Position numbers and translations under genes: made by a program
Notes under the pieces: model-generated
Told to the model about the DNA's origin: nothing
What the model saw: the letters and a program-made list of their open reading frames with translations, nothing else
Databases searched by the model: none
Assembly: GCA_021813325.1 (NCBI GenBank)
Contig: JAKALA010000022.1
Span: 1 to 51,560, forward strand
DNA: 51,560 nt
From: a bacterium
Lineage (GTDB): Bacteria > Verrucomicrobiota > Verrucomicrobiia > Limisphaerales > UBA11358
Direction of reading: 5' to 3'
In this document: positions 2,777 to 40,593 of the stretch, in pieces
Numbering within the stretch: the stretch's first letter is position 1
Layout of the letters: every line of letters starts with the position of its first letter

Positions 2777-4033
2777 ATGCAAGTTTACGAACATCCAACG
2801 TTTCAGATGGCGTGCCGGCAATTTGATCGCGTGGCCGATCACTTGCAAATTCCCGAAAGCGACTGCGGACGGCTTAAATTTCCCAAACGCTCCCTGGCCG
2901 TTGCCCTGCCGGTGCATATGGACGATGGCACCACTCAGGTCTTCAGCGGTTACCGCGTGCAACATCATCTTACCATTGGCCCCACCAAAGGAGGCTTGCG
3001 GTATCATCCTGACGTCAAGCTTGGCGAGGTGGCGGCGCTGGCGATGTGGATGAGTTGGAAATGCGCATTGGCCGGTCTGCCTTTTGGCGGCGCCAAAGGC
3101 GGCATTGCGTGTGATCCGTCCAAACTTTCGCCGGGTGAAGTGGAACGTCTCACCCGCCGCTTCACGCAGGAAATGATTCCATTCATCGGCCCACAGATGG
3201 ATGTGATGGCGCCGGATGTGGGCACGAATGAACAGACCATGGCGTGGATCATGGATACTTTTTCCATGCACGCCGGATATACGGTGCCCAGCGTGGTGAC
3301 GGGCAAACCGGTGGGGTTGGGCGGTTCGCTGGGCCGGCGCGAAGCCACCGGGCGCGGCGTTGCTTATCTCATTAATCGCGCGGCAGATGTGTTGAGCCTG
3401 GACCTGGGGAAATCCACGGCGGTGGTGCAGGGATTTGGAAATGTGGGGTCGGTTGCGGCTTATTCGCTCGGACGTTACGGCGCCAAGGTGATCGCGGTCA
3501 GCGATGTGGGCGGGGCGATTTACAATTCGATGGGATTGGATTTATTGGCCTTGGAAAAATACGTCGCCCAAAACCACCGGGTGGGAGGCTTCCCCGGCGC
3601 GGAGCCGATTGCCCACGAACAACTGCTCTTGTTGCCCTGCGATATTCTCGTGCCGGCCGCATTGGAACGGCAAATTACGGCGGAAAATGCGGGCAAAATT
3701 CAATGTCGCATTTTGGCGGAAGGCGCCAATGGTCCGACCACGCCGGAAGCGGACGCGATTTTGGAACAGCGCCCGGAAGTTTTTGTCATTCCCGACGTGC
3801 TCGCCAATTCGGGCGGCGTGATTGTGAGTTATTTTGAGTGGGTGCAGGATTTGCAGAGTTTCTTTTGGAGCGAAACAGAAATCGCAGACAAGCTGTTCCG
3901 GATTCTGGAGAATTCCTGGGCGCAGATTCTCAATTGCAGCCGCAAACAAAATATTTCCATGCGGCTGGCGGCGTTGAGCACGGGCATTCGTCGCGTGTAT
4001 GAAGCCAAACGCCAGCGCGGATTATTTCCGTGA
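2777..4033 (+). CDS. gdhA: Glu/Leu/Phe/Val family amino-acid dehydrogenase (probably glutamate)
   Basis: This enzyme catalyses reversible NAD(P)-dependent oxidative deamination, most likely of glutamate, linking nitrogen and carbon metabolism in the cytoplasm. The 418-residue length fits hexameric bacterial enzymes. Visible motifs are PTKGGLRYHP (K71), KCALAGLPFGGAKGG (K95 and catalytic K107) and the Rossmann segment QGFGNVGSVAA. I chose the ATG at 2777 because family similarity begins there. An in-frame ATG at 2723, overlapping the preceding TGA, would add 18 residues. The reading frame stays open farther upstream inside the peptidase gene, but that part is out of frame with a real protein. 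Substrate specificity is inferred from family resemblance, not proven. Confidence 0.88.
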   Translation: MQVYEHPTFQMACRQFDRVADHLQIPESDCGRLKFPKRSLAVALPVHMDDGTTQVFSGYRVQHHLTIGPTKGGLRYHPDVKLGEVAALAMWMSWKCALAGLPFGGAKGGIACDPSKLSPGEVERLTRRFTQEMIPFIGPQMDVMAPDVGTNEQTMAWIMDTFSMHAGYTVPSVVTGKPVGLGGSLGRREATGRGVAYLINRAADVLSLDLGKSTAVVQGFGNVGSVAAYSLGRYGAKVIAVSDVGGAIYNSMGLDLLALEKYVAQNHRVGGFPGAEPIAHEQLLLLPCDILVPAALERQITAENAGKIQCRILAEGANGPTTPEADAILEQRPEVFVIPDVLANSGGVIVSYFEWVQDLQSFFWSETEIADKLFRILENSWAQILNCSRKQNISMRLAALSTGIRRVYEAKRQRGLFP

Positions 4034-22941: not shown

Positions 22942-23832
22942 ATGCCAACGCTGGCCGAGCAACTGGATCCCTGCCAAGCGCTGAAGCAGTTGGCGGATCA
23001 AATGCCTTGGACGGAGTTTGAGACGACGTTTGGGAAGTATTACAGTCCGGAAGGGCGTCCGGCCAAGCCGGTGCGTTTGCTGGTCGGGCTGCGGTTGCTC
23101 AAGCAGAGGTTCAACCAGGGCGATGAGACGGTGGTGGCGGCTTGGGGGCAGAACCCTCACTGGCAATACTTTTGCGGGATGCCGGAGCTTCAGTGGGCCG
23201 CGCCCTGTGATCCCAGCGATCTGGTTTACTTCCGGCAACGCATCTTTCAGGTCAGCGCGCAGTTGCACGGGGACAAGGCGGAGGAAAAGGAGGTGGTGGT
23301 GGACACGACGGTGCAGGAAAAGAACATCACCTGTCCGACCGACAGCAAGCTGGCGCACAAGATCATCGGGCGTTGCTGGAAGCTGGCCGACCGGCACGGG
23401 GTCAAACTGCGGCGGCGTTATCGCAAGGCGGTGCGGCACGGTGTGCGGGCGCAACGCTGGCGGAAGGATCCGAGGAAACGGAAGCTGGCGCACCGGGCGT
23501 TGCGGTAGCTGAAAACCATCGCCGGGCGTTTGCTGCGCGAACTGGAGCGCAAGCCGCCCGCCGCGTGCGGCCGGAACAGCCAGAAAACTTTGCGCTGTAT
23601 CGGCGCGTGCTGGCTCAACAGCCGGCGGATCGGGACAAAGTTTACTCCCTTGCACGAGCCGCAGGTTTACTGTCTCGCCAAGGGCAAGGAGCACAAGAAA
23701 TACGAATTTGGCAGCAAAGCCTCGGTGGTGCTGACCAAGACCGGTGGCGTGATCGTGGGCGCGGTGGCGCACCCGGAAAATCTTTACGACGGAGACGCGC
23801 TGGTGCCGGCGCTGGAACAAACGCAGGCGGTT
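22942..23832 (+). pseudogene. IS5-like transposase remnant
   Basis: The N-terminal part (MPTLAEQLDPCQALKQLADQ … FGKYYSPEGRPAKPVRLLVG … DPSDLVYFRQRI) and the later segment LHEPQVYCLAKGKEHKKYEFGSK are typical of IS5-family DDE transposases. An in-frame TAG at 23506-23508 interrupts the gene. The same frame resumes directly afterwards with LKTIAGRLLRELERK. Similarity stops after GDALVPALEQTQAVI (about 23832), so the last third, with the final catalytic residues, is missing. The element is therefore dead. It separates the cofactor run from the oxidoreductase gene. Confidence 0.85.
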
Positions 23833-24174
23833 ATCCCGCCGCTATTTGCGTTAGCTACATACTTCCGCCATGTTTTTACCCTGTTACCCAAGCGACGGGG
23901 CGTCGCTTCCACACTGTTTCAGAGGTCTCAAATGATGCGGTTTACGCCGGGCAAAAGCAGGATTTGCCGGTTTGGGTTGGCGGAAGCAATGGAACCCTGT
24001 TCTCGAAGCGTGATTTTTTTGCCGGAGTGTAACCGAAACGCGGTGGGCTGGCGTCTAGTCAACTTTCCGAGGACAGTTGCATTATGGTCTCCCCGGTTTC
24101 GGGCAAAGACAGATCTTCTGGATTCGGCTGGCCTTGGAAGAGAAAACCCGATTACCAATTACCCCGAATCACGC
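23833..24174. other. Unassigned DNA after IS truncation
   Basis: These 342 bases hold no supported gene. One frame ending in TAA at 24030-24032 reads DAVYAGQKQDLPVWVGGSNG, which looks like the degraded end of a protein but has no family I recognise. The junction with the transposase fragment suggests a deletion or rearrangement. Confidence 0.4.
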
Positions 24175-25989: not shown

Positions 25990-26153
25990 AAGTGAATTTA
26001 GAGGCCAGCAAAAGCCGCAACTGTTTTCCGTTCAGACGTTATCGGATCGTGATTGGTTAACTAAAAACCGACAAACAGGCTAAATCCCGTCCCACCTTCG
26101 GCTTGGCTGGCCGCTGCAACTTCCGCTTGCCGCTGGGACGCCCACACCCGATC

Positions 26154-26810
26154 ATGCCTGCGGTTTTCATGCCAGACTCTGTTGACACAGAAATAACCGA
26201 TGCCGAGTTGGTGCGCCGCGCCAAAGCGGGCGAACTGGAAGCATTCGAGACGCTGACCAGCCGCCATGAACAGCGGGTGTTTGCCCTGGCCATGCGCATG
26301 TTGCGGCAGGAACACGACGCCGAGGACGTGACGCAACAGACCTTTCTGAGCGTATTGGAAAATTTGGAAAGCTTTCGCGGCGAAGCCAGTTTTTCCACCT
26401 GGGTGCTGCGCATCGCCGCCCACGCCGCCCTGAAAATTATTCGCAAACGCAAAGGGTTGCCGACCGTTTACTTGGAAGAAACGACGGAGCCGGATGGCTA
26501 TGACTCGGTGCCGCATCCCGAATACATTGCCGACTGGAGCCGGTCGCCCGATCAATTGGCGGCGCAGAATGAGGTGCGGCGCCTGTTGGACGAGGCCTTG
26601 ACGCGCCTGGATGAAAAGCATCGCTTGATTTTTCTGCTGCGCGATGTGGAGGGATTGTCCGTCCGGGAAACCGCCGAGGCGTTGGAATTAAGCGAAGCGA
26701 ATGTGAAAGTGCGCCTGCTGCGCGCGCGGTTGCAACTGCGTGAGGAACTGACCCGGGTGCTCGGCGATCCGGGCAAACAATTGCCCCGCTCCCATCACCG
26801 CCACGAATGA
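26154..26810 (+). CDS. ECF-type sigma factor
   Basis: This RNA polymerase sigma factor of the extracytoplasmic-function group has 218 residues from the ATG at 26154; the ATG at 26169 is equally possible. Region 2 is seen at about 30-95 (FETLTSRHEQRVFALAMRML, EDVTQQTFLSVLENL, FSTWVLRIAAHAAL). Region 4 is at about 145-200 (LDEKHRLIFLLRDVEGLSVRETAEALELSEANVKVRLLRAR). An HC2-type anti-sigma gene follows after 70 bases. A GTAACTT-N16-TCAAA promoter-like sequence lies in that gap and is repeated farther downstream, so this factor probably reads both. Confidence 0.92.
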   Translation: MPAVFMPDSVDTEITDAELVRRAKAGELEAFETLTSRHEQRVFALAMRMLRQEHDAEDVTQQTFLSVLENLESFRGEASFSTWVLRIAAHAALKIIRKRKGLPTVYLEETTEPDGYDSVPHPEYIADWSRSPDQLAAQNEVRRLLDEALTRLDEKHRLIFLLRDVEGLSVRETAEALELSEANVKVRLLRARLQLREELTRVLGDPGKQLPRSHHRHE

Positions 26811-26830: not shown

Positions 26831-26861
26831 TTTGTAACTTTCCGCCGTCCGGTGGCTCAAA
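26831..26861 (+). promoter_or_regulatory. ECF-type promoter of anti-sigma/rhodanese unit
   Basis: TTTGTAACTTT (26831-26841), 12 bases, then GGCTC (26854-26858); expressed as an ECF promoter this is GTAACTT-N16-TCAAA. The same elements with the same spacing occur at 27795. The likely start site is about 26866-26868, giving a short leader to the ATG at 26881. GTAAC-type -35 elements are known for some ECF factors. Confidence 0.65.
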
Positions 26862-26880
26862 TTGTGCATAGGTCCGAACC

Positions 26881-27159
26881 ATGAAGTGCGAAGAACTGCT
26901 GGCAATGTTGAATGAATACGTGGATGGCACGGTGGATCCGACTGTGTGCGCCGAATTTGAAGAGCACATGGCGGGGTGCAATCCGTGTCAGGTGGTGGTG
27001 GATAACATTCGTCAGACCATCACGCTCTACAAGGACGGCCAGCCTTACACGATGCCCGTGAAATTTCGCGCCCATTTGCATGAAGTTTTGCGCCAGAAAT
27101 GGCGGGAAAAACATCCGGTAACAACCGGCGACGAGGAAAAGAGCGAACATCAACCATGA
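26881..27159 (+). CDS. HC2-type zinc-finger anti-sigma factor
   Basis: This 92-residue cytoplasmic protein has the zinc-binding anti-sigma pattern: C3, then H29, C33 and C36 in EFEEHMAGCNPC (HX3CX2C). It has no TM helix, so it is a soluble sensor, probably thiol/zinc-responsive, that holds the preceding ECF factor. It is preceded by its own ECF-like promoter, consistent with negative feedback. Its stop overlaps the rhodanese ATG (ATGA), coupling the two. Confidence 0.85.
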   Translation: MKCEELLAMLNEYVDGTVDPTVCAEFEEHMAGCNPCQVVVDNIRQTITLYKDGQPYTMPVKFRAHLHEVLRQKWREKHPVTTGDEEKSEHQP

Positions 27160-27542
27160 ATGCCGGTTTAAATTGGACGCCCATTTTGATTTTTGGCGGC
27201 GTGGTGGCGGGCATGTTTTTGTTGAAACGGTCCGGCCAGGTATCGGCTCAAGCCGCGCAAACTTACCTGAAACAGGGCGCTTTGGTGATTGATGTGCGCA
27301 CACCGGGCGAATTCAACTCCGGGCATTTGCCAACGGCCATCAACATTCCGCTGGATGAAATCACCGCCCGCCTGCCCCAACGCGTGGGCGATAAAAGCCG
27401 GATCTTGTTGCTGCATTGCCAAAGTGGCATGCGCAGTGGCGTGGCCAAAAATCAGTTGAAGGGCATGGGATATGCCAATGTTTACAACCTGGGTTCCCTG
27501 GGCCGGGCGCGGGCCATCGTGGGAAATTCGGCCAGGCGTTAG
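27156..27542 (+). CDS. Membrane-anchored single-domain rhodanese
   Basis: This 128-residue protein has an N-terminal TM helix (about 8-23) followed by one rhodanese domain. The domain has ALVIDVRTPGEFNSGHLPTAINIP and the active-site loop HCQSGMRS with C88. Such proteins handle persulfide sulfur or act as thiol sensors. Coupling to an HC2 anti-sigma factor points to sulfur, redox or metal stress. The 3' end (NLGSLGRARAIVGNSARR) is basic and slightly shorter than usual for the fold. The next gene downstream is a DUF2892 membrane protein; rhodanese plus DUF2892-like TM segments together make up YgaP-type proteins. Confidence 0.88.
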   Translation: MNAGLNWTPILIFGGVVAGMFLLKRSGQVSAQAAQTYLKQGALVIDVRTPGEFNSGHLPTAINIPLDEITARLPQRVGDKSRILLLHCQSGMRSGVAKNQLKGMGYANVYNLGSLGRARAIVGNSARR

Positions 27543-27657
27543 CCTTTTAGCCGGAACCAGGCGGTTGGATTGAGGGGCTAAAGGTCAACTTGCGTTTGAA
27601 GTTTCAGTCAAGGACAGTGGGGGCGCATTTGTTGCGCATTGACGGAGCGATCTCAAA

Positions 27658-27679
27658 GCGGGTAATCCCGCCCGTTTTT
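27658..27679 (+). terminator. Terminator after rhodanese gene
   Basis: GCGGG (27658-27662), loop TAAT, CCCGC (27667-27671), then CCGTTTTT. The stem is short, but the U-run is clear. It lies 116 bases after the rhodanese stop and separates the two ECF-regulated units. Confidence 0.5.
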
Positions 27680-27794
27680 CGTATGGTCGGGGACCGCAGG
27701 GCGATGTGATTCGAATTCAAAACTATGTTCGTGTGGTGCGAGGCGGAATAAACTGAGGGGTTCCGCCGGTCCGCCGCCGACAAAAGCAAATTCC

Positions 27795-27825
27795 TTTGTA
27801 ACTTTTGGTGGTTTCGCGGCTCGGT
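27795..27825 (+). promoter_or_regulatory. ECF-type promoter of DUF2892/RND unit
   Basis: TTTGTAACTTT (27795-27805), 12 bases, then GGCTC (27818-27822), identical in sequence and spacing to the element at 26831. The -10 core would be TCGGT, so transcription would begin about 27830-27833, almost at the ATG at 27834. The message may be nearly leaderless. Confidence 0.6.
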
Positions 27826-27833
27826 ATGGGCAA

Positions 27834-28055
27834 ATGAAAATGCATCTGCTCATCCGTCGATTTGCCGGCACGTTTATTCTGGCCAGCCTGTTGCTCGCGC
27901 ACTATCACAGCCCGAATTGGCTTTGGTTTACGGCGTTTGTCGGCTTTAACCTGATCCAGTCTTCGTTCACCAACTTCTGTCCGCTGGAGCTGATTTTGAA
28001 GAAGTTCGGCTTTGGCCGGGACGAAAATAAATCTGGCGGTTCTTGGGGTTCCTGA
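27834..28055 (+). CDS. DUF2892 (YgaP-like) small membrane protein
   Basis: This 73-residue protein has two hydrophobic segments (about 10-24 and 28-45) and the family's NLIQSSFTNFCPLELILKKFG, including the conserved Cys in FTNFCP. DUF2892 proteins form the membrane part of YgaP-type rhodaneses and often accompany RND pumps and rhodanese genes. It is 17 bp upstream of the adaptor gene and so heads the efflux operon. Confidence 0.85.
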   Translation: MKMHLLIRRFAGTFILASLLLAHYHSPNWLWFTAFVGFNLIQSSFTNFCPLELILKKFGFGRDENKSGGSWGS

Positions 28056-28072: not shown

Positions 28073-29095
28073 ATGAAACGGCTTCTATTTTTAACTTTAA
28101 TGGCGGCGGGACCGTTTTGGGCGGGCTGCCACAAAACCGCGGAGAAGGTTCCGTCAGCGTTGCTGCCGGCGGCCCCGGTGCGCGTGCAGGCGGTTGAACG
28201 CAAAACGCGCGCCGCCACGGAAGATGTCGTCGGCACCGTGCGCCCCAAGTTGAGCGCCGCCATCGAAGCCAAGATCAGCGGGCGCATCGAACAAATGCTC
28301 GTGGTCTCCGGCCAATCCGTGAAAGCCGGCGATTTGCTGGCCACGTTGGACGCGCATGAAGTTCAGGCCCGGCTGGATCAGGCCACCGCCGCGTTGCAGC
28401 AGGCGGAGAGTGACTTCAAGCGGGCCACCGATTTGCATGACCAGAAAATTCTTTCGCAATCGGAATTCGACAGCGCGCAATCCAAGTATCGCATGGCCGC
28501 CGCCGTGGAGGCCGAGGCGAAAACCATGCTGGATTACACCCAAATAGCCGCGCCGTTTGACGGGGTTATCACGCGTAAACTGGCCGATGTCGGCGACCTG
28601 GCTGCGCCCGGCAAAACCTTGCTGCAAATGGAAAATCCCAATGCGTTGCGTCTGGAGGCCGATGTGCCCGAGGCCCTGATTGACAACGTGAGGCTGGGCG
28701 ACAAATTCCCCGTTCGGGTGGCGACCATCCCCAATGAAATTCAGGGCGCCGTAGCCGAAATGTCGCCCGCCGCCGATCCGAACAGCCGCACCTTTTTGGT
28801 CAAGCTGAACCTGCCGAACACGCCGGGATTGCGGTCCGGCCAATTTGGCCGGGTGGCGGTGCCCGTGGGTGAGGTGACGGCGATTCGTGTGCCGGCCACC
28901 GCAGTCATTCAGCGTGGCCAGATGGAACTGGTTTTTGTGGCGGCCAACGGCCATGCGGAATTGCGCCTGATCAAAACCGGTCGCCGCGTCGGCGATGAAA
29001 TGGAAGTGGTTTCCGGCTTGAATCCGGGCGAGCAAGTCGTCACCGAAGGCGCGGCGGAATTGACCGATGGACAACCTCTGACTGTCAAGCCGTGA
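28073..29095 (+). CDS. RND efflux periplasmic adaptor (membrane fusion lipoprotein)
   Basis: This protein links an RND permease to an outer-membrane channel. The 340-residue protein has a lipoprotein signal ending FWAGC (Cys about residue 19), a biotinyl-lipoyl-like half motif ([28 protein letters not shown]), a coiled-coil hairpin (about 95-155), the second lipoyl half ([23 protein letters not shown]) and beta-barrel/MP domains. The length is compact, with a short hairpin. It overlaps the permease start (GTGA). No outer-membrane factor is in the operon, so a shared TolC-like protein is presumably used. Confidence 0.93.
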
Positions 29096-32000
29096 CTTCC
29101 CCCAACGACAATCCACCGGGCGCCCACCTTGGCATCGCGGGCCGCATTGCGCAGGCGTTTATCGATTCCAAACTGACCCTGCTGATCGTCATTGCCGCAT
29201 TGCTCCTGGGCGTCTTCGCCGTGGTCATGCTGCCGCGAGAGGAGGAGCCGCAGATCAAGGTGCCAATGGTGGATGTGATGGTTTCCATGCCCGGCTCCAG
29301 CGCCAAAGAGGTCGAGGAGCGCGTCACCCGCCCAATGGAAAAACTGCTCTGGGAAGTTCCCGGCGTGGAATACATCTATTCGACTTCGAGCGAAGGCCAG
29401 TCGCTGGTGATCGTGCGGTTCAAGGTGGGCGAGAACATGGAAGAAAGCCTGGTAAAGTTGAACCAGAAACTGCGGCAGAACTTCGATAAAATCCCGCATG
29501 GCGCGTCCGCGCCGCTGGTAAAGGCGCGCTCCATTGACGATGTGCCGATTCTGGCGCTCACCTTTCACAGCCCGCGTTACGATCATCTGATGCTGCGCCG
29601 GTTGGTGGCGCAGGTGGATGATTCCATCAAGCAAGTTCCCCTGGTTGCGGAGACCACCATCATCGGCGGCGAACAGCGCGAGATTCGCGTGTTGCTCGAT
29701 CCGGTGAAACTGGCGGCGCGCAATCTCTCGCCCGCCGGTCTGGTGCCGATGCTGCAACAGGCGAACCGCCAATATTCCGCCGGCGACCTGGCCAGCGACG
29801 ATCACGCTATCGTCGTCGAAACGGGCGCGTTTCTGCGCAGCGCGGCGGATGTGGGCAATGTGGTGGTGGGCGTTTATGCCGGCAAACCCGTTTATTTGCG
29901 CGACGTGGCGACCATTGTGGATGGCGGCGAAGAGCCGAACCAGTATGTGTTTTTCGGCACCGGCGCGGCGGCGGGCATCAGTCCCGCGCAGCCAGCGGTG
30001 ACCCTTTCCATTGCCAAGCGTCCCGGCGCGAATGCCATTTCCGTGGCGCGCCAGGTGTTGAGGAAAGTGGATCTGCTCAAGGGCTACATCATTCCCGCGG
30101 ATGTGCAGGTGACGGTGACGCGCAACTACGGCCTGACCGCCGAGGAAAAATCCAACGAACTGCTGTGGCACATGCTGATTGCGGTGGTCAGCGTGTCGTT
30201 TCTCATTTTGCTGGCGCTCGGCTGGCGCGAATCGTTCATCGTGTTGCTGGCCATTCCCGCGACGCTGTCGCTGACGTTGCTGGTCTTTTATCTTTACGGG
30301 TTCACGCTCAACCGAATCACGCTGTTCGCGCTGATATTTTCCATTGGCATTCTGGTGGACGATGCCATTGTCGTGGTGGAAAATATCGTCCGCCATTTCC
30401 ATCTGCCGCAAAACAAGGGACGCAGCCGCTCAAGCGTGGCCATCGAGGCGGTGAGCGAGGTGGGCAATCCGACCATTCTCGCGACGTTTGCGGTGATTGC
30501 TGCCGTGCTGCCGATGGCGTTTGTCGGCGGGCTGATGGGACCCTACATGCGGCCGATTCCGATCGGCGCCAGCGCGGCGATGTTCTTTTCGCTGGCGATT
30601 TCATTCATCGTCACGCCGTGGGCGGCGGTCCGGGTGTTGCAATGGCGCCAGAAGATTCATGCTGCCGGCAGCCACGCGCCGGATCATGAGGCGGCGAGTG
30701 AAAATTTCTTCGGTCGGCTGTATCGCGGTCTGATGCTGCCGCTTATCGCCAGCGCGAAACGGCGTTTTATTTTTCTGGGCATCCTGGTGGTTCTGCTGCT
30801 CGGCTCCATGGCGTTGGTCGGCCTCGGCTGGGTGAAGGTGAAAATGCTGCCGTTCGACAACAAGAGCGAATTCCAAATCATCCTCAACATGCCGGAAGGC
30901 AGTTCCCTCGAACGCACCGCGCAATGTGCGCAGGAGATCGCGGACGCGGTCCGTTCCGAGCCGGAGGTGACCGATTACGAGACTTACGTGGGCGTCGCTT
31001 CGCCGTTCAATTTTAACGGATTGGTGCGTCATTATTTCATGCGGCGCGGCGCCAACGTGGCGGATTTGCAAATTAACCTGGTGCCCAAGAGCGAGCGCAA
31101 ATTTCAGAGCCACGACATCGCCAAACGGGTGCGCCCGCGCGTGGCGGAGATTGCCGCGAAATTCAATGCCCGCGTGGCCGTGGCTGAAGTGCCGCCCGGA
31201 CCGCCCGTGTTGCAAACGCTGGTGGCGGAAATTTACGGGCCGACCGAGAAAGACCGCCTGACGCTGGCGCGGAAGGTGATTGATATTTTCCACAGCACGC
31301 CGGGCGTGGTGGACACGGACTGGTATATCGAAGCGGATCAACCCAAGGTCGAGTTTGTGATCGACAAGGAAAAAGCCGCGCTGCACGGCATCAGTGCCGA
31401 AACCATTTCGCAAACGCTCCAGATTGCCGTCGGCGGCGATTCGGTGGATTTGTTGCATGTTCCCAAAGAGAAGGAAGACGTGAACATTGTCCTGCAACTG
31501 CCGCTGGCCAGCCGGAGCAATCCGGAGGAATTGCTCGCGTTGCGGGTGCGTTCCGGCGATGCGAACGCGCTTCCCGAACCGGCCGCCGCCGCCTCTTCCT
31601 CCCCGCTCGTGCCGCTGCGCGAACTGGTCACGGTCAAGCACACGATCATCGACAAGAGCATCTATCACAAAAATCTCATGCCCGTGACCTACGTGATCGG
31701 CGACGTGGCGGGCGTGGTGGAAAGTCCGGTGTATGCGATTCTCAAGATGAACCAAGCCTTGGCAAAGCTGGACACGAAACAGTTTGGCGGCGACGGTTCG
31801 CCCTTGAAAATTTACAACGCGGTGCTGCCGTTCAACGATCATCAACCGGCCCTGAAATGGGACGGCGAATGGCATATTACGATAGAGGTGTTCCGCGACT
31901 TGGGCCTCGCGTTTGGCGCGGTGCTGGTGCTGATTTACATTTTGATGGTAGGCTGGTTCAAGTCGTTCCTCACGCCGCTCATTGTGATGGTTGTGATTCC

Positions 32001-32376
32001 GTTTTCGCTCATCGGCGTGCTGCCGGCGCACGGCATGTTACATGCGTTCTTCACGGCGACGTCCATGATCGGCTTCATGGCGGGCGCGGGCATTGTCGTC
32101 CGCAACTCGATTATTCTCGTGGACTTCATCGAGATGCGATTGGCGGAGGGGCATCCGCTGGCGGCCGCGGTGGTGGAGGCGGGCATGGTGCGCTTCCGTC
32201 CCATCATGCTCACGGCGCTGGCGGTCGTGGCGGGGGCCACTGTCATTCTGGCCGATCCGATCTTCCAAGGTCTGGCGATCGCCTTGATGGCCGGAAGTTT
32301 GATCTCCATGTTCACCGCGCCGGTGGTGGTGCCGCTGCTTTACTTCATGGCGAACAACCGGCCCCAACGGGATTAA
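29092..32376 (+). CDS. RND efflux permease
   Basis: This is a proton-driven inner-membrane pump of the AcrB/HAE-like RND family, with 1094 residues and a GTG start coupled to the adaptor. The expected two halves are seen: TM1 near 25-47, a large periplasmic loop starting [20 protein letters not shown], a TM2-6 block with the proton-relay pair D423-D424 in [13 protein letters not shown], and a second periplasmic loop. The second TM block contains [21 protein letters not shown]. The substrate is unknown. The context (ECF factor, rhodanese, DUF2892) favours a redox-, sulfur- or metal-related stress compound over general drugs. Confidence 0.93.
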
Positions 32377-32637
32377 TCCTTTCGGGAAAATTGCTGGGTG
32401 AGGGGCCTTGATGGGCCATTCAGCGGGCTTAAAACCAAGCCGTTGGTGGTAAGCGTTTTTGCGCTGGCGGGCCGAAGTTTTGGTCCGCCGCCGGCGCGTC
32501 CGGCCACGGCCAGTTGCTGCCGGCTTGTTTCATCAATGATGGCGAATTTATTGGCTCAAACCAGCGTGTTTGGTTTGCAGACAAGTGATTTTGAGTCTCG
32601 CTTTTCATCGCAAATGCTACAGATGGTGCCTATTCCC

Positions 32638-35600
32638 ATGCTGGAAAAGCGTTTTTACTCCGTGCTGGCTTTGGTCATGATGGCCGTGCTTTCAAAAGCT
32701 GTCAGCATGACTCCACTTGATGTCACCGGCTTCAACCGTGATGTCGTCGTTGAAAACACCGTTCCCGGCCCGCCTTACACCGGCGCGGCGCTGGAATTGA
32801 ATCCGGGGGAGAATTTGTGTTTTTATCAGGCGGGGCTTGCGGGAACGACCCGCGGGTTGCCGGAGACCGGATTGTTCACGAGCGCCTTGACGGGCGATGA
32901 CGGCACTGAATTTCAGTTTCAGCCTTACACGGCCAACAATGCCTTGGTGTTGAGCAGCGGCACGGGCATCAGCTCCGGCCCATTGACCCTGACGACGCCG
33001 GCGGCATATTCGCGCATCGCGGTGATCGCCAATTCAGCCAGCGGCGGCGGCAGTCCCAATCTCACCCTGAATTTCAGCGACGCCAGTTCGCTGACCACGA
33101 CCTACAACGCGCCGGATTGGTTTAACAACAGTGGTTACGCTTTGTTGGGCATGGAGCGCATCAATATTTCCGACGGCAATGTCAGCGGCGGTTCGACGAA
33201 TCCGCGTTTTTACCAGACCACATTGGATTTGGTGTCGCTGGGCGTGAGCAACAAGCAACTGGTCAGCATCACGTTTAATCAGGCCAGTGGGGCCGGTTCC
33301 ACGGGCATTTATGCCGTGAGCGGCGAAAGCGCAGCCCCGTCGCCAGCGGTGATTGCCGTAAATCCAACCAACGCCACCGTGGCGGAACTGTCGCCCGCCA
33401 GTTTTTCAGCGGGAGTTGCGGGGAATCCGTATCCGGCGTTGCAATGGCTGAAGAACGGCAGTCCCGTTTCCGGAGCGACCAACGCCATGTATTCCATCGC
33501 TTCGGCAGCACTGGCGGACAATCAAGCGTTGTTCCGTTTGGTGGCCACCAACCTGGTCAGCGGCGTGGCTTGCGCCGTGACGAGCAGTCCGGCCCAGTTG
33601 ACGGTGGTTGCGGACACCATCAAGCCGGTGTTGACCGGCGCCCAATCGCTGGGGTTGAGCCAGGCGCAGGTGATGTTTTCTGAACGTGTCAAAACTTCCA
33701 CCGCCACCAATCTGGCCAATTATTCCCTCGCCGGCCCCGGCGGCGCGGTGGCGATTTCCCGCGCCGTTCTCGATGGCACGCAAAGCAATGTGGTGCTGAA
33801 CGTGGCGGCCTTGAGCGATGGCGCCACCTACACCCTCACGGTGAACAATGTGGCGGATCAATCCGCGGCCGCCAATGTGATTGCGGCCAATTCGCACACC
33901 AATTTCATCGCTTCAATCTACGCGCCGGTGGCCATCGGCGGCGCCGTGCCGGCGGGCGGTTTCACCACGGTTGCCAATGGCTTTGATATGGCCGGCGGCG
34001 GGGCGGATCTGGGCGGAACCAATGACCAGTTCCAATTCAATTACCTTCCCACCACCGGCGATTTTGATGTGAAGGTGCGGATTGATTCCATCACCCTGGC
34101 GGAGGCGTGGTCGGAGGCGGGCCTGATTGCGCGCGAAGATCTCACGCCGGGATCGCGGTTAGCCAGCATCATGGGCACGCCCTCGATCAGCGGTTGTTAT
34201 TTTCAGACGCGGGCTTTGACGAATGGAACGACCACGCTGACCGGTTCCTACCCGGCGAATTATCCCAACACCTGGCTGCGGCTGAAACGGTCGGGTGATG
34301 TATTTACCGGTTATGCGAGTGTTGATGGGCAAGGCTGGACGCAACTGGGCACGGCGACATTAGCCATGCCTTCCACGATTTATTTTGGGTTTGCGGTGTC
34401 CAGTCACAACCTCAGCCAGGCTTCCACCGCAGCGTTTCGCGATTATGGCAATGTTACGGCTGCGACCGTGGCGGGTTTGCCGCCCTTTGAACCTTTGGCC
34501 CAATGCAGCCGGCGCACCAGCCTGGTGATTTCGGAAATCATGTATCATCCCACCAACAGCCAGGTGGAATACGTGGAGCTGTTCAACTCGCTGGGCGAAC
34601 CCGCCGATTTGAGCGGATACCGCCTGGCGGGCAGCATTGATTACATTTTCCCCGATGGCACGATTCTTCCGGGCGGCGGCTTTTTGGTGGTGGCTCGTTC
34701 GCCGGGTGATTTGGAAAATGCCTATGGGCTGACCGGCGTGCTGGGGCCGTATTCCGGCAATTTGCCGAATGACAGCGGCACGGTAAAATTGATCAACCAC
34801 TCCGGCGCTGTTTTCTTGCAGGTGGATTATTCCGACCATTCGCCGTGGCCGGTGGCGGCGGATGGTTCGGGCCATTCGCTGGTATTGGCCCATCCGTCCT
34901 ACGGCGAAAATAATCCGCTGGCGTGGTCGATCAGCGACGTTATCGGCGGTTCACCTGGCCGTCTGGATTCCTACACACCGGAACCTGTGCGCAACGTGGT
35001 GATCAACGAGTTCCTCGCCCATACCGATCCGCCGGATTACGACTACGTGGAGCTTTACAATCACAGTTCGCAGCCGGTCGATATTTCCGGGTGCATTCTC
35101 ACGGACGATCTTTCCACCAACCGGTTTGTCATTCCCGCCGGCACCATTCTGGGCGCGCGCCAGTGGGTCGCCTATTCCTGCCCCAACCTGAGTTTCAACT
35201 TGAATGCGGCTGGCGAGGATATTTATTTCAAAAACGCCGCCGACACGCGGGTGATCGACGCGGTGCGCTTCGATGGCCAGGAAAACGGTGTGGCCACGGG
35301 GCGTTACCCGGATGGCGGCGATCGATTTTATCGGCTGGCTGGCAAAACGCCTGGCAGTGCCAACGCGCCGATTCTGGTCAGCGACATCGTCATCAACGAA
35401 TTGATGTATGATCCAATCAGTGGCAATGATGACGATCAATACGTGGAGCTTTACAACCGCAGCACCAACACGGTGGATCTGGGCGGATGGAGCCTGGGCG
35501 ATGCGATCAGCTACCGCTTTCCCACCAACACCTTGATCCGCCCGGACGGTTATGTCGTCGTGGCCCGCAATGCCGCGCGGTTGGAAGCCAGTTATCCGGG

Positions 35601-38600
35601 ACTCAATGCGACCAATTGCTTTGGGGATTTCAGCGGCAAGCTGGCGCACGGCGGGGAGCATCTCACCTTGGCAAAATCTGTGCCGCATCGGGTATTGGAC
35701 AATGGCGTGACCGTGACAAATCCACTGGACGTGGTGATGGAAGAACTCACCTACACGCATGGCGGGCGCTGGCCGGAATTATCCGCCGGCGGCGGCAGCA
35801 GCCTGGAATTGATTGATCCGACGAGCAATCCGCAATTGCCTTCAAACTGGGCCGACAGCGATGAAACGCGCAAGGCCCCGTGGACGCATATTTCGGCCAC
35901 CGGCACGATTGACAATGGCGATGTCACGGCTGACGAATTACAGGTGCTGCTCCAGGCGGCGGGCGAATGCCTGATCGACAACGTCCAGGTGACTTCCAGC
36001 GGGAACAATCTGATTGCCAATTCCACGTTTGAATCCAGCGCCACCGGCTGGACGGCGGAAGGAACCGAATCGCAATCCAGCCTGGAAAGCACGGAAGGTT
36101 CCAGCAGCAGCAAATCCTATCACATTCGCGCGGTCACGCGTGGTGACAACCAGGTGAACCGCGTGCGCACGCCGCTGTCCACATCGCTGGCCTCCGGCAC
36201 AACGAATGTCACCTTGTCGGCGGATGTCCGCTGGCTCAAAGGCACCCGAAATATTTTGCTGCGATTGCGCGGGAACTGGCTCGATTGCGCGGGAAAAATG
36301 GCGTTGCCGGTAAATCCCGGAACCCCCGGCGCCCGCAACAGCCGATATATTACCAATGCGCCGCCAGCAATTGTGCAAGTGCAGCATTCCCCGGTGTTGC
36401 CGGCGGCCGGCGAGCCGATTGTGGTGACGGCGCGGGTGATGGATTCCGATGGAATTTCGCTCGTCGTTCTCCAATATCGGCTGGACCCAGCCATCAGTTA
36501 TTCGACGGTGATCATGCGGGACGATGGCACGGGCGGTGACGCGGTGGCGGGCGACGGCATCTATTCGGCGACGATTCCCGGGCAAACGACCGGAACGATG
36601 GTGGCTTTTTACGTGCAGGCATCCGATGCGCATGTCCCCGCCGCCACGGACACGTTTCCCAATGATGCGCCCGCCCGCGAATGTCTCGCGCGCGTGGGCG
36701 AAGTGCAGCCGACCGGCAACCTGCCTGTGTATCGCATCTGGATGACCCAGGCCACGCAAAACACGTGGGCCAGCCGCAATACGCAAATCAACACGCCTTT
36801 GGACGTGACTTTTGTCCTGGGTAACTCGCGGGTGATTTACAACACGTCGGCGCTCTATGCGGGCAGTCCTTACATTGCGCCGGGTTATTGCGGCCCGGCG
36901 TGCGGGCGTTGCGGTTATTCCGTCACCACGCCGGATGATGATTTGTTTCTGGGTGAAACGGATTTGGTGCTCGACTGGCCGGGCGGTCACGGCGCCGAAA
37001 CCAGCGCGATTCAGGAGGAAATGGGCTACTGGATTGCCGATCAGCTCAACCTGCCGTTCAGCCATCGCTACCATGTTCGATTGCACGTGAACGGTGTGAC
37101 GGATGACGACCGGCAAAGCATTTTTGAAGCGGTCATGCAGCCGGGCGGCAGTTTTGTGGATGAATGGTCGCCCAACGATACGGGCGGACGGTTTTACAAA
37201 ATCGAACGGGCGTTTGAGTTCAGTGACGCCGGCAGCCTTGCCGCCGATCCCGAGCCGCGCCTGCAAAACTACACCACCACGGGCGGCGCGAAGAAACATG
37301 AGAAATACCGCTGGAATTTCCTGCCCCGCGCCGGCACGAGCGTGGACGATTTTACGAATATTTTCGCGCTGGTGGACGCCGTGAACGCCACCGCGCCGGA
37401 GCCCTACACGTCTTCAACCTTCGGCCTGGTGGACGTGGAGGAATGGATGCGGATTTTCGCGACGGAACACATCATCGCCAACTTCGACGCCTACGGTCAT
37501 GACATCGGCAAGAACATGTATGCCTACCAGCCAGAAGATGGCAAATGGCAGCTTTACATGTTTGATCTCGATTGGCTGATGCTCGCGGCGGCGCAGACGG
37601 GACGCACCGCCAGCGCCGCGCCGCTGTTCACGTCCGAAGATACGACCATCGCGACCATGTATGCGTTTCCGGCCTTTCAACGCGCCTACTGGCGGGCGGT
37701 GCAGGACGCGGTGAACGGCCCGATGCTGTCGGCCAAATGTGATCCGGTCATGGATGCAAAATATCAATCGCTGCGGGCGAACGGCGTGAATTGGTGTGAT
37801 GGCCAGGCGTTGCAGGATCCGTCCCCGGTCAAGCAATGGTTTGCCGACCGCCGGGTGTTTTTGGTGAATCAACTGGCCACGGTCGCCGCTGATTTTGCGC
37901 TGAACGGTTCCACGAATTTTACGGCGACGACGAATCTAATTACGCTCACGGGCACCGCGCCGGTTTCGGTGACCACCATCACCATCAACGGGCAGCCCTG
38001 GCCGGTGACCTGGACGAGTGTCAGTAACTGGACCGCCACGGTGGCGCTCAACACCGGCAGCAATCTGCTCAATGTCCTGGCTTACGACGCCAGCGGAAAT
38101 TTGGTGGGCAATGCGGACAATCCGGTTCAGGTGGTTTACAATGCGGTCACCCCTTCACCGGTGGGCGCGGTGGTGTTCAATGAGCTGATGTATTCGCCGG
38201 CCCTGCCGGATGCGGAATATGTGGAGTTGTTCAACACCTCCAGCAACACGGCGTTTGACCTTTCCGGCTGGAACATCAACGGCCTGGGTTACACCTTCCC
38301 CGGCGGCAGCGTGCTGGCCCCGCGCAGTTATCTGACGCTGGCCAAAAATCGCACAGCGTTCGACGCGGCTTATGGCGGCAGCCCCGTGGTCTTTGATGAA
38401 TTTTCCGGCAACCTGCAGTTGAATGGCGAAACGCTTTCGCTGCTGCAACCGACGGGCGTGTCGGACCAGTATAACGTGGTGGATCGCGTGCGTTACGAAG
38501 ACAATCTGCCATGGGCGGCGGCCACCAACGGGCTGGCGTTGCAGCTCGTGGACGCCCAGCAGGACAACAGCCGTTCCGCCAACTGGGACGTGGGCAGCCC

Positions 38601-40593
38601 GCCCAATCTGCCGCAGAATTTGTCGTTCCTCGCCTACAACAGCGCTTGGAAATTCATGCAGGTTTCCAATCTGGATGGCGTGAACTGGACCGCGCCGGGT
38701 TATAACGATTCCACCTGGCCCTCCGGCCCCGGCTTGCTCGCTTATGAAGTCAATTCGCTGATTGTGCCGTTGATCGGCACCACGCTGAATCCGCCCGGGA
38801 TGGCAACCAATAATGTGACCGCCGGGCACGCCGACTATTTCCGCACCCAGATTGTCATCTCCAACAAACTGTCCGGCTACACGATCAACGCCAGTGCCTA
38901 TATTGACGATGGCGCGGTGTTTTATGTGAATGGGGTCGAAGCGCAGCGGGTGCGCATTGCCGCCGGCATTTTGGTGACGAACAAGACCTTCACCACCGGC
39001 CAGCCGCCAACTGGGGATGCCGTCAACCCGGATCTATTCACGCTGGATCCGTCCTTGTTCACGCTGGGCACCAATGTCATCGCGGTGGAAGTGCATCAAA
39101 ACGTGGCCGGCAGTTCGGATATTACGTTCGGGTTGCAGCTTGGCACCACGTTCACCGGCAATTATCTCGCCACGGCCACGCCGGGAGCGGCGAATTCGGT
39201 GGCCGCGTCGTTGCCCGCATTTCCGGATTTGTGGTTGAACGAAGTGCAGGCTGGCAATCTGACCGGTCCCACGAACAATCTCGGCGAGCACACGCCGTGG
39301 GTGGAATTGCACAATGCCGGCAGCAATGGGGTGAGTCTGGCGGGCTATTATCTTTGCAATAACTACACCAATCTGGGCCAGTGGGCCTTCCCGACGAACC
39401 TGACGATCCCGGCCCATGGATTTCTGGTGGTCTGGTGCGATGGCCAGACCAGTCAGTCCACGGCCGGCGCGCCGCACGCCGGCTTCACGCTGCCCGCCAA
39501 CGGCGGCAGTGTGGCGCTCGTCCGCACTATGGTCGGAAATGCGTTGCAGGTGGTGGATTATTTGAATTACACGAATCTGCCCAACAACTGGACCTACGGC
39601 GATGTGCCCGATGATCAGCCGTTCTATCGTGAGCAAATGTTCTTTGCCACGCCGGGCGCCACCAACAACCGCGCGCTGCCGCCGCTGACCGTGTTCATCA
39701 ACGAGTGGATGGCCGACAACGTCGCCACCCTGGCCAATCCATACAACGACAAATATGACGACTGGTTTGAGCTGTATAATCCCACCACGAACACGATGGA
39801 TCTGGGCGGCTATTACCTGACCGGCACGCTGACCAACCAGACCCAGTTTCAGGTGCCCAACACCGGGCAATATCAGATTCCGCCGCATGGTTACATGGTG
39901 GTTTGGGCCGACAACAACAGTTCGGCCAACAGCTCCAGCCGGCCGGAATTGCATGTGAACTTCAAGTTGAGCAAGGCCGGCGATGCCATCGGCCTGTTCA
40001 GTCCGGATGGCACCGCCATTGATGCCGTGACGTTCGGGGCGCAGGCCACGGATGTCAGCGAAGGCCGCTATCCGGATGGTTCCAGCACCATGCTCTCGAT
40101 GCCGGCGCCCACGCCGGCTGCGCCCAATGTGGTGCCGAACACCGCGCCGGTTTTGGCGGCCATCAGCGGCCGGGAAGTGACGCTCGGCCAGACGCTCACC
40201 TTGGCGGCCGTGGCCACCGACGCCGACCAGCCGGCCCAAACACTGACTTACAGCCTGGCCGCTGGCGCGCCGGCGGGAGCTTTCATTAATGCCACCACCG
40301 GGCAATTCAGTTGGACGCCCACCATCGCGCCGGCCACCAATACGGTGAGCATTGTGGTGACGGATAATGGCTCGCCCAGCCTCAGCGACACGAAGACATT
40401 TGCGATATACGTTTATCTGCCGCCGACCATTTCATTTGAAGTCAATGGCAGTCAGCAGATGCAGCTTGCCTGGCCGCGCGGCACGCTGCAGTCGGCCAGC
40501 GAAATCACCGGGCCTTACCACGATGTTCAAGGGATGTCGCCGTATGTGATCAGCCCAACCCAGGCCAAACAGTTTTTCCGAGTCCGCTTGTAA
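32638..40593 (+). CDS. Giant secreted lamin-tail / CotH-kinase multidomain protein
   Basis: From the ATG at 32638 the protein has 2651 residues; ATGs at 32614 and 32623 and a GTG at 32398 are alternatives, but a signal peptide (…[16 protein letters not shown]) begins here. Approximate order: unnamed DWF-type domain 26-230, Ig-like 237-322, bacterial Ig-like 325-420, DUF1349-like sandwich 429-607, three lamin-tail domains 624-1034, carbohydrate-binding-like segment 1100-1200, CotH-type kinase region 1361-1747 ([20 protein letters not shown] … LYMFDLDW), then lamin-tail domains at 1841-1970, 2196-2314 and 2351-2477, a cadherin-like domain 2501-2590, and a C-terminal module ending KQFFRVRL. Probably an extracellular adhesin or matrix protein able to phosphorylate secreted partners. 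Likely co-transcribed with the next gene (33-bp gap). Confidence 0.85.

Follow-up and report, generated by a model that had tools for sequence, protein, structure and literature searches.

Conserved ECF-type promoter sites outline a putative sulfur-stress regulon in Limisphaerales

Two nearly adjacent transcription units beside a gene for an extracytoplasmic function (ECF) sigma factor are each preceded by the same spaced sequence motif, on a contig of 51,560 nucleotides from a bacterium of the Limisphaerales (Verrucomicrobiota; GCA_021813325.1, JAKALA010000022.1). The whole stretch is referred to as the window. A putative cognate anti-sigma factor is encoded beside the sigma factor. Are the two sites promoters of this sigma factor, which genes would such promoters serve, and to which signal would the circuit respond? 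The first-pass annotation of the window had read the sites as ECF promoters that unite a zinc anti-sigma factor, a membrane rhodanese, a DUF2892 protein and an RND pump in one regulon, possibly a persulfide/redox or metal stress circuit.

The two sites and their conservation before orthologous genes

Both sites follow the pattern TTTGTAACTTT-N12-GGCTC on the plus strand. They start at 26831 and 27795, as first described, and are 28-mers that agree in all 16 specified bases and in the length of the 12-base spacer. Site 1 (26831..26858; -35 region TTTGTAACTTT, -10 region GGCTC) lies between the sigma and anti-sigma genes and ends 22 nucleotides (nt) before the ATG of the anti-sigma gene at 26881, which is followed by a rhodanese gene. 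Site 2 (27795..27822) ends 11 nt before the ATG at 27834 of a gene for a YgaP-like transmembrane (YgaP-TM) protein, the DUF2892 protein of the first-pass annotation, which leads an operon with RND genes. Both match the pattern exactly and score 34.8 and 37.3, respectively, with the matrix described below. At site 2, the 11-nt gap between the -10 box and the start of YgaP-TM (27822-27834) recurs in 7 of the 14 tested copies; judged from this distance, the transcript would be a nearly leaderless mRNA.

Could two such sites be alike by chance? The pattern was read off the sites themselves, so statistics within the window are post hoc. The two sites are the only exact matches in the genome of 4,283,325 bases, where the reversed pattern has none. 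Allowing up to three mismatches in the window returns just the same two, and at least two sites were reached in 4 of 100 shuffles (mean 0.37). A pair of the 11+N12+5 form within 1.5 kb occurred at least once in 4 of 60 first-order Markov surrogates, which speaks for chance; besides the pair described, the real window contains a second location of this kind (49804/50611, which was counted twice owing to a shifted register). With spacers of 8-20, there are 21 such pairs in the window compared with 0-8 in 15 surrogates, in a window that has other repeats too. The pair by itself is worth a look and is only suggestive; proof is given by the orthologues.

At up to three mismatches, the genome contains 21 matches compared with 56 for the reversed pattern, i.e. 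background. Sites in this genome were therefore retained at zero to two mismatches with a GTAAC core (n=5). The genome-wide scan proposed in the first-pass annotation thus yields the two exact sites and three more probable ones, each with two mismatches and matrix scores of 33.0, 27.2 and 26.3. A further candidate with two mismatches (C9:20900, TTTGGAAC, matrix score 11.5) was dropped.

The first-pass annotation had staked its proposal on conservation before orthologues, and conservation is what we find, both at anti-sigma genes and at YgaP-TM/RND operons (next section). With up to three mismatches and within 120 nt upstream, a site precedes 69 of 80 anti-sigma orthologues (65 with an N12 and 4 with an N13 spacer), compared with 7 of 1,540 control windows drawn from the same 80 loci. 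This refutes a chance resemblance of the two sites, whose probability we put at practically nil. Fourteen of the 80 loci come from genomes already in the genus set; when these are set aside, 54 of the remaining 66 have an anti-sigma site at a matrix score of at least 12. The named relatives are metagenome bins, mostly from Verrucomicrobiota subdivision 3/Limisphaerales, with a few labelled Acidobacteria, Omnitrophota or Planctomycetota, and these labels may err. The site before anti-sigma orthologues is conserved in Verrucomicrobiota and in a few bins labelled Acidobacteria or Omnitrophota, and it is weak in those labelled Planctomycetota.

An alignment of 65 sites gives a consensus of about TGTAACTTTT-N11-CGGCTC. 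The boxes are nearly invariant and the flanks are not, an invariance that is partly imposed because these sites were preselected at up to three mismatches. AAC is found in the -35 region of at least 63 of the 65 sites so selected, and the -10 region is CGGCTC, not CGT; AAC is also the classical ECF -35 box according to an excerpt of PMC8103513. The spacer is exactly N12 in 52 of 52 sites with up to two mismatches, from contigs around sites and anti-sigma orthologues, when lengths of 11-13 are allowed. The matrix was trained on the 65 preselected anti-sigma sites, which match it by construction; in the same loci it finds 44 further sites that were not used for training, of which 28 lie beyond the genus, compared with 2 for the reversed matrix. 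At four loci (L128, L136, L168 and L170, near 3190-3280), a minus-strand site points into a divergent YgaP-TM or thioredoxin gene.

Co-occurrence with the sigma factor and content of the regulon

Within the genus (49 genomes), the pattern at up to one mismatch gives 44 sites, compared with 7 for its reversal. Orthologues of the sigma factor (E <=1e-45) and of the anti-sigma factor (at least 73% identity) are found in the same 13 genomes; an anti-sigma match had been obtained in 20 genomes, of which 7 were excluded because their matches are paralogues at 25-37% identity. The motif is present in all 13 genomes with the pair and in 2 of the 36 without it (Fisher test, 4e-10). Together with the conservation before orthologues, this tracking supports, at the level of sequence, the reading of the sites as ECF promoters. 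Across the class (384 genomes), 20 genomes carry the anti-sigma factor (E <=1e-15), 24 the strict motif and 13 both (Fisher test, 3e-13).

The same intergenic regions, which the first-pass annotation had suggested comparing in relatives, separate genomes with and without the sigma factor. In sigma-positive genomes, a site lies within 700 nt upstream of the YgaP-TM gene in all 14 copies tested: 8 within 40 nt, 2 at 136-180 nt and 4 at 563-591 nt, the last being operons led by thioredoxin and DUF6132 genes. Two sigma-positive copies outside these 14 also have a site, and seven distant paralogues at 28-35% identity were left out of the comparison. In sigma-negative genomes, no site was found at any of 10 YgaP-TM copies when 6-9 kb around the gene was scanned whole. 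The best matrix score in these 10 copies is 7.7, compared with 19-43 in the 14 sigma-positive ones. Two of the sigma-negative genomes, G001 and G033, have a site elsewhere in the genome.

In place of the site, all 10 sigma-negative copies (L214-L223) have a divergent gene of the ArsR type, identified by alignment in the 10 and by Pfam in the 3 scanned. Two cysteines of its product are conserved in all 10 genomes, and the adjacent gap contains an ATATAAC/GTTATAT inverted repeat, in its strict form in 3 of 10 and similar in appearance in the others. Judging from these alignments, the YgaP-TM/RND operon seems to have passed between control by an ECF sigma factor and control by a repressor. The ArsR-type protein scores above the cut-off of the ArsR/SmtB metalloregulator model (75.9 vs 55 bits), the only model it passed and a general one. 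An assignment to BigR/SqrR was rejected, as the best of three scanned proteins reached 36.7 bits with the BigR model against a cut-off of 155 and the helix-2 cysteine is displaced from the SqrR position. The exchange of regulators is compatible with a sulfur signal and is no proof of it by itself.

Which genes follow the sites? The 44 genus sites were found regardless of genes; 9 have the anti-sigma gene first, 33 an operon with a sulfur/redox gene and 2 neither, one of which belongs to a YgaP-TM gene with a start codon placed too far upstream by the gene call. For scale, 450 genes were called in these contigs, which had been picked for the sites, and 95 of them are sulfur/redox genes. The gene of cluster C44 that follows one exact site (L066, G042:C252:23623) has no sulfur label. 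Gene labels were spread by BLAST clustering from representatives; of the 39 operon clusters, 25 could be identified with Pfam. The families behind sites comprise rhodanese, YgaP-TM, thioredoxin alone or joined to DUF6132, a C_GCAxxG_C_C protein, cytochrome bd subunits, TauE, Sulf_transp (which we take to be of the YeeE/YedE type), Cons_hypoth698 (presumably YeiH-type), AhpC/1-Cys peroxiredoxin, a methyltransferase, a response regulator with a histidine kinase, and RND parts; the operon gene labels OMF and SDR are likewise names that we assume. In 52 site-led operons of the genus, YgaP-TM occurs 18 times, rhodanese 17, thioredoxin 16, TauE 6, cydA 4 and peroxiredoxin 2, and the RND operon is a frequent member.

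In the genome of the window, one of the three further sites lies before a flavoprotein-like frame that includes a rhodanese domain; the other two lie before rhodanese genes, one of which has a response-regulator-like frame behind it. The flavoprotein (C7) and the response regulator (C119) were recognised by eye and the rhodanese domains by a separate search. Four of the six rhodanese-domain genes of this genome follow a site (hypergeometric probability 6e-10 to 4e-9, 3,400 genes assumed). Outside the genus, 20 of the 28 further matrix sites lead, as judged by eye, to operons containing rhodanese, thioredoxin, CoA-disulfide-reductase-like or YgaP-TM genes, three to adaptor/RND genes only and one to an anti-sigma gene at a longer distance (L121); the other four carry no sulfur label (L129, L152, L166 and L169 at 2900). 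Rhodanese, TauE, Sulf_transp and cytochrome bd genes are found behind sites across the genus, not all in one genome, and represent the sulfurtransferase, the transport of sulfur compounds and the sulfide-resistant oxidase that persulfide-response regulons combine. In the genome of the window, the genes seen behind sites, besides that of the anti-sigma factor, are limited to rhodanese, the flavoprotein-like frame and the YgaP-TM/RND unit. The regulon of the first-pass annotation (anti-sigma factor, rhodanese, DUF2892 and RND) is thereby upheld, since sites are conserved before both the anti-sigma gene and the YgaP-TM/RND operons. We regard the predicted promoter and regulon, taken alone, as very probably real. 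One G045 contig has six sites within about 58 kb, an arrangement that resembles a regulon island (L053-L056, G045:C15, and L058-L061, G032).

The predicted circuit and its signal

In 54 regions upstream of the sigma gene, no site was found at up to three mismatches, and the best matrix score there is negative in all 14 genus copies. Most ECF operons are positively autoregulated, about 55% of ECFs by one prediction, as given in an excerpt of PMC8103513. Such autoregulation, usual and not universal for ECF sigma factors, was not detected by the scan of upstream regions. As no site was found before the sigma gene, activation should raise the inhibitor and not the sigma factor. Feedback on the anti-sigma gene and not on the sigma gene should, on this arrangement of sites, amount to a quick shut-off design. 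A sigma factor that drives its inhibitor but not itself would be an uncommon ECF design and worth modelling.

The anti-sigma factor (26881..27159, plus strand, 92 amino acids; Pfam zf-HC2, E 2.4e-10) is the putative sensor. C3, C23, H29, C33 and C36 are invariant in 75 anti-sigma sequences, an invariance partly imposed at C33 and C36, which were contained in one of the two search peptides. H29, C33 and C36 form the Hx3Cx2C motif of zinc-binding anti-sigma (ZAS) factors, and the spacing of C3-H29-C33-C36 (26, 4, 3) equals that of Cys11-His37-Cys41-Cys44 in RsrA, whose Cys11 is required for redox release according to an excerpt of PMC4960319. The match to the RsrA model TIGR03988 has an E-value of 1e-7 and 32 bits, below the cut-off of 62.5; by its sequence, the protein is RsrA-like in motif and is not filed as RsrA. 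A PDB search with the anti-sigma profile returned RsiW only (E 0.0027), and the AlphaFold model, with a mean predicted confidence (pLDDT) of 56, is too poor to use.

We suggest the following mechanism. Both sites would be promoters bound by the neighbouring ECF sigma factor. In the unstressed cell, the small anti-sigma factor would hold the sigma factor, probably with zinc bound at its Cys-His-Cys-Cys site. When sulfane sulfur (persulfides, polysulfides) derived from sulfide builds up, it would attack the zinc thiolates C3, C33 and C36. Zinc would leave, a disulfide or polysulfide would form, presumably between C3 and C36 (or C3 and C33), and the sigma factor would be freed. It would then transcribe a dispersed regulon consisting of the anti-sigma gene, which closes a shut-off loop, the membrane rhodanese, and YgaP-TM with the RND pump. 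Depending on the genome, thioredoxin, a CoA-disulfide-reductase-like flavoprotein with a rhodanese domain, the C_GCAxxG_C_C protein, TauE-, YeeE- and YeiH-type transporters and cytochrome bd oxidase could be added. The sigma gene would not be a target, so induction would raise the inhibitor and not the sigma factor. As a whole, an ECF sigma factor and a zinc anti-sigma factor running a sulfane-sulfur/sulfide stress regulon with feedback on the inhibitor is the explanation that we favour, and we consider it moderately likely.

Several observations weigh against this account, some at the level of the promoter and some at the level of the signal. No site at up to three mismatches was found before 11 of the 80 anti-sigma genes, including those of all 5 loci labelled Planctomycetota, which have 4-8 mismatches and retain a TGTAAC core. 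Sigma genes at the 80 loci were located by tblastn; they adjoin the anti-sigma gene in only 47 and were not found on the plus strand in 23. In the other 33 loci the sigma gene is elsewhere, off the contig (contig ends explain some) or undetected, and the site mostly stays with the anti-sigma gene. Within the genus, G001 (69% complete) and G033 (94%) carry a site and no detected sigma gene. Their single sites are before a YgaP-TM paralogue and before rhodanese-CydAB, respectively, and the sigma gene may possibly be missing or lost. Class-wide, the strict motif does not occur more often than its reversal (27 vs 26 matches in 384 genomes). Therefore, only its co-occurrence with the anti-sigma factor is informative there, and the motif, which equals background outside anti-sigma carriers, is unusable alone for predicting regulons in distant genomes. 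The separated loci and the two genus genomes would suit a motif that is the operator or promoter of some other regulator. Such a motif would hardly be expected to consist of two boxes at fixed spacing with AAC in the -35 region, to track the sigma factor almost perfectly in the genus and to be absent at the same operon where the sigma factor is absent, and we consider this alternative very improbable.

For the signal, the most plausible candidate is sulfane sulfur or sulfide, because the gene set matches sulfide-response outputs in Acinetobacter and Escherichia coli. In excerpts of the respective papers, sulfide induces tauE and cydAB in Acinetobacter, where yeeE-yedE is in a BigR-controlled sulfur detoxification operon (PMC7315123), and in E. 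coli, ygaVP and cytochrome bd genes are regulated by YgaV, which senses sulfide (PMC9774250). What fits this less well is that no persulfide dioxygenase is among the 25 of 39 downstream operon clusters identified, that the SQR-like protein is far below its model cut-off (42.8 vs 525 bits), that the CoA-disulfide-reductase-like flavoprotein with a rhodanese domain that follows sites is also below (448 vs 579), and that the helix-2 cysteine of the ArsR-type protein lies three residues after the SqrR position. Thioredoxin, peroxiredoxin and the CoA-disulfide-reductase-like protein, all behind sites, suit general thiol oxidation equally well, and RsrA senses disulfide stress. The chief competitor keeps the same sigma/anti-sigma regulon and replaces the signal by general thiol-oxidative stress (disulfide, peroxide, hypochlorite) as in SigR-RsrA, with the sulfur genes as a part of thiol repair. 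The spacing shared with RsrA, in which Cys11 is required for redox sensing, and the match to the RsrA model favour it. The sub-threshold score of that match does not, nor does the scarcity of peroxiredoxin among the 52 operons compared with rhodanese and YgaP-TM (thioredoxin being neutral), nor the failure to find a catalase in the 25 clusters identified out of 39; on balance, we hold it to be rather unlikely. A regulon for thiophilic metals, organometals or drugs, in which the zinc anti-sigma factor and ArsR would sense metals and the RND pump would be the principal output, could draw on the frequency of the RND operon, on the metalloregulator score of the ArsR-type protein and on the derepression of E. 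coli ygaVP by tributyltin, reported in an excerpt of PMC9774250. The permease is nearer to multidrug than to CusA/CzcA models, rhodanese, YgaP-TM and thioredoxin are the members that occur most often, and no role in metal handling is obvious for cytochrome bd, TauE and YeeE, which makes such a regulon improbable. From the two circuits proposed in the first-pass annotation, the wider gene set thus favours sulfur/redox over metals, with the signal itself inferred from gene content.

A more specific version of the sulfane-sulfur account can be put forward tentatively, at somewhat less than an even chance. The ECF sigma factor with its Cys-His-Cys-Cys zinc anti-sigma factor may be a direct sensor of sulfane sulfur, with a polysulfide bridge forming at the zinc site, feedback on the inhibitor only, and exchange with an ArsR repressor at the same operon in close relatives, in Limisphaerales/subdivision 3 and in bins labelled Acidobacteria. 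With the same reservation, it might do the job held elsewhere by SqrR, BigR, CstR or FisR.

Related systems and other features of the locus

The closest system in terms of the anti-sigma factor is SigR-RsrA of Streptomyces, a thiol-oxidative ECF sigma factor with a zinc anti-sigma factor of the same Cys/His/Cys/Cys spacing. In contrast, the anti-sigma factor here is below the RsrA cut-off, no site was found before its own sigma gene, and the gene set is rich in rhodanese, YgaP-TM/RND, sulfur transport and cytochrome bd. The persulfide regulons of CstR, SqrR/BigR and FisR share sulfurtransferase, TauE and YeeE/YedE as outputs, and cytochrome bd is sulfide-induced (excerpts of PMC7315123 and PMC5823870). 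Their sensors are of the CsoR type, of the ArsR type and a sigma54 activator, respectively (excerpt of PMC9774590), whereas here an ECF sigma factor with a predicted zinc anti-sigma factor would take this place, and no persulfide dioxygenase was seen in the clusters identified. E. coli YgaV-YgaP likewise has a YgaP membrane domain and a rhodanese in the regulated unit, and YgaV also controls cytochrome bd genes (excerpt of PMC9774250), a likeness that extends to the ArsR-type gene beside YgaP-TM in sigma-negative relatives. In the window, however, YgaP-TM and rhodanese are separate genes behind ECF-type sites, and the helix-2 cysteine of the relatives' ArsR-type protein is displaced from that of SqrR, as given above.

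ECF sigma factors with zinc anti-sigma factors and persulfide regulons are each known. Among the open-access matches listed, judged by titles and the beginnings of abstracts, we found no ECF sigma factor with a zinc anti-sigma factor controlling a sulfane-sulfur response, nor any ECF sigma factor in charge of a regulon for defence against sulfane sulfur, which is not proof of absence. The nearest precedent seen is Arcobacter butzleri, in which the ECF factors sigma-2 and sigma-7 also affect sulfur genes; according to an excerpt of PMC3445524, their targets are Sox enzymes together with nap and tct genes and differ from a set for defence against sulfane sulfur. Should sulfane sulfur be the signal, a sigma/anti-sigma pair would join the classes of regulators in a field so far described mostly in terms of DNA-binding repressors and activators. 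In any case, two matching sites become a defined, testable regulon with a predicted promoter and a predicted sensor with named cysteines, in a phylum with little known regulation, and the relatives that lack both sigma factor and motif provide a natural control.

Gene calls at the locus were hexamer-scored, which replaced longest-open-reading-frame calling, poor in this GC-rich DNA. The sigma, anti-sigma, rhodanese, YgaP-TM and RND genes are all on the plus strand. The ECF sigma gene (26169..26810) encodes 213 amino acids, with a longer TTG-start reading frame beginning at 26103. Its product has sigma2 and sigma4 domains only, as expected of an ECF sigma factor (Pfam Sigma70_r2, E 2.3e-17; Sigma70_r4_2, E 1.8e-14), and its orthologues in 12 other genomes of the genus are 63-81% identical. 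The C-terminus (26784-26807) is a His-rich tail, SHHRHE, and at least two histidines among the last residues are present in 13 of 14 genus orthologues, counted by eye in the alignment; metal binding by this tail is possible, judging from its composition.

The rhodanese gene (27156..27542; Pfam Rhodanese, E 5.2e-16) encodes the active-site loop LHCQSGMRS and, as seen by eye, an N-terminal hydrophobic stretch. Between the two units, a terminator-like hairpin followed by a T run is found at 27658..27671 on the plus strand, a weak signal, since shuffled sequences contain hairpins of this kind at least as often. The second unit consists of the YgaP-TM gene (27834..28055, 73 amino acids; Pfam YgaP-like_TM, E 1.5e-10), an RND periplasmic adaptor (28073..29095; NCBIfam RND_mfp, E 3.7e-75, above cut-off) and an RND permease (29092..32376; Pfam ACR_tran, E 2.2e-163). 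With NCBIfam models, the permease scores 447 bits for RND_permease_2 compared with 235 bits for CusA/CzcA, both below cut-offs, which places it nearer to multidrug than to heavy-metal transporters. Downstream of the RND genes, a very large open frame of 2,659 codons (32614-40593) is on the same strand, and transposase-like frames, seemingly split, are seen in the translations at 22942-24032.

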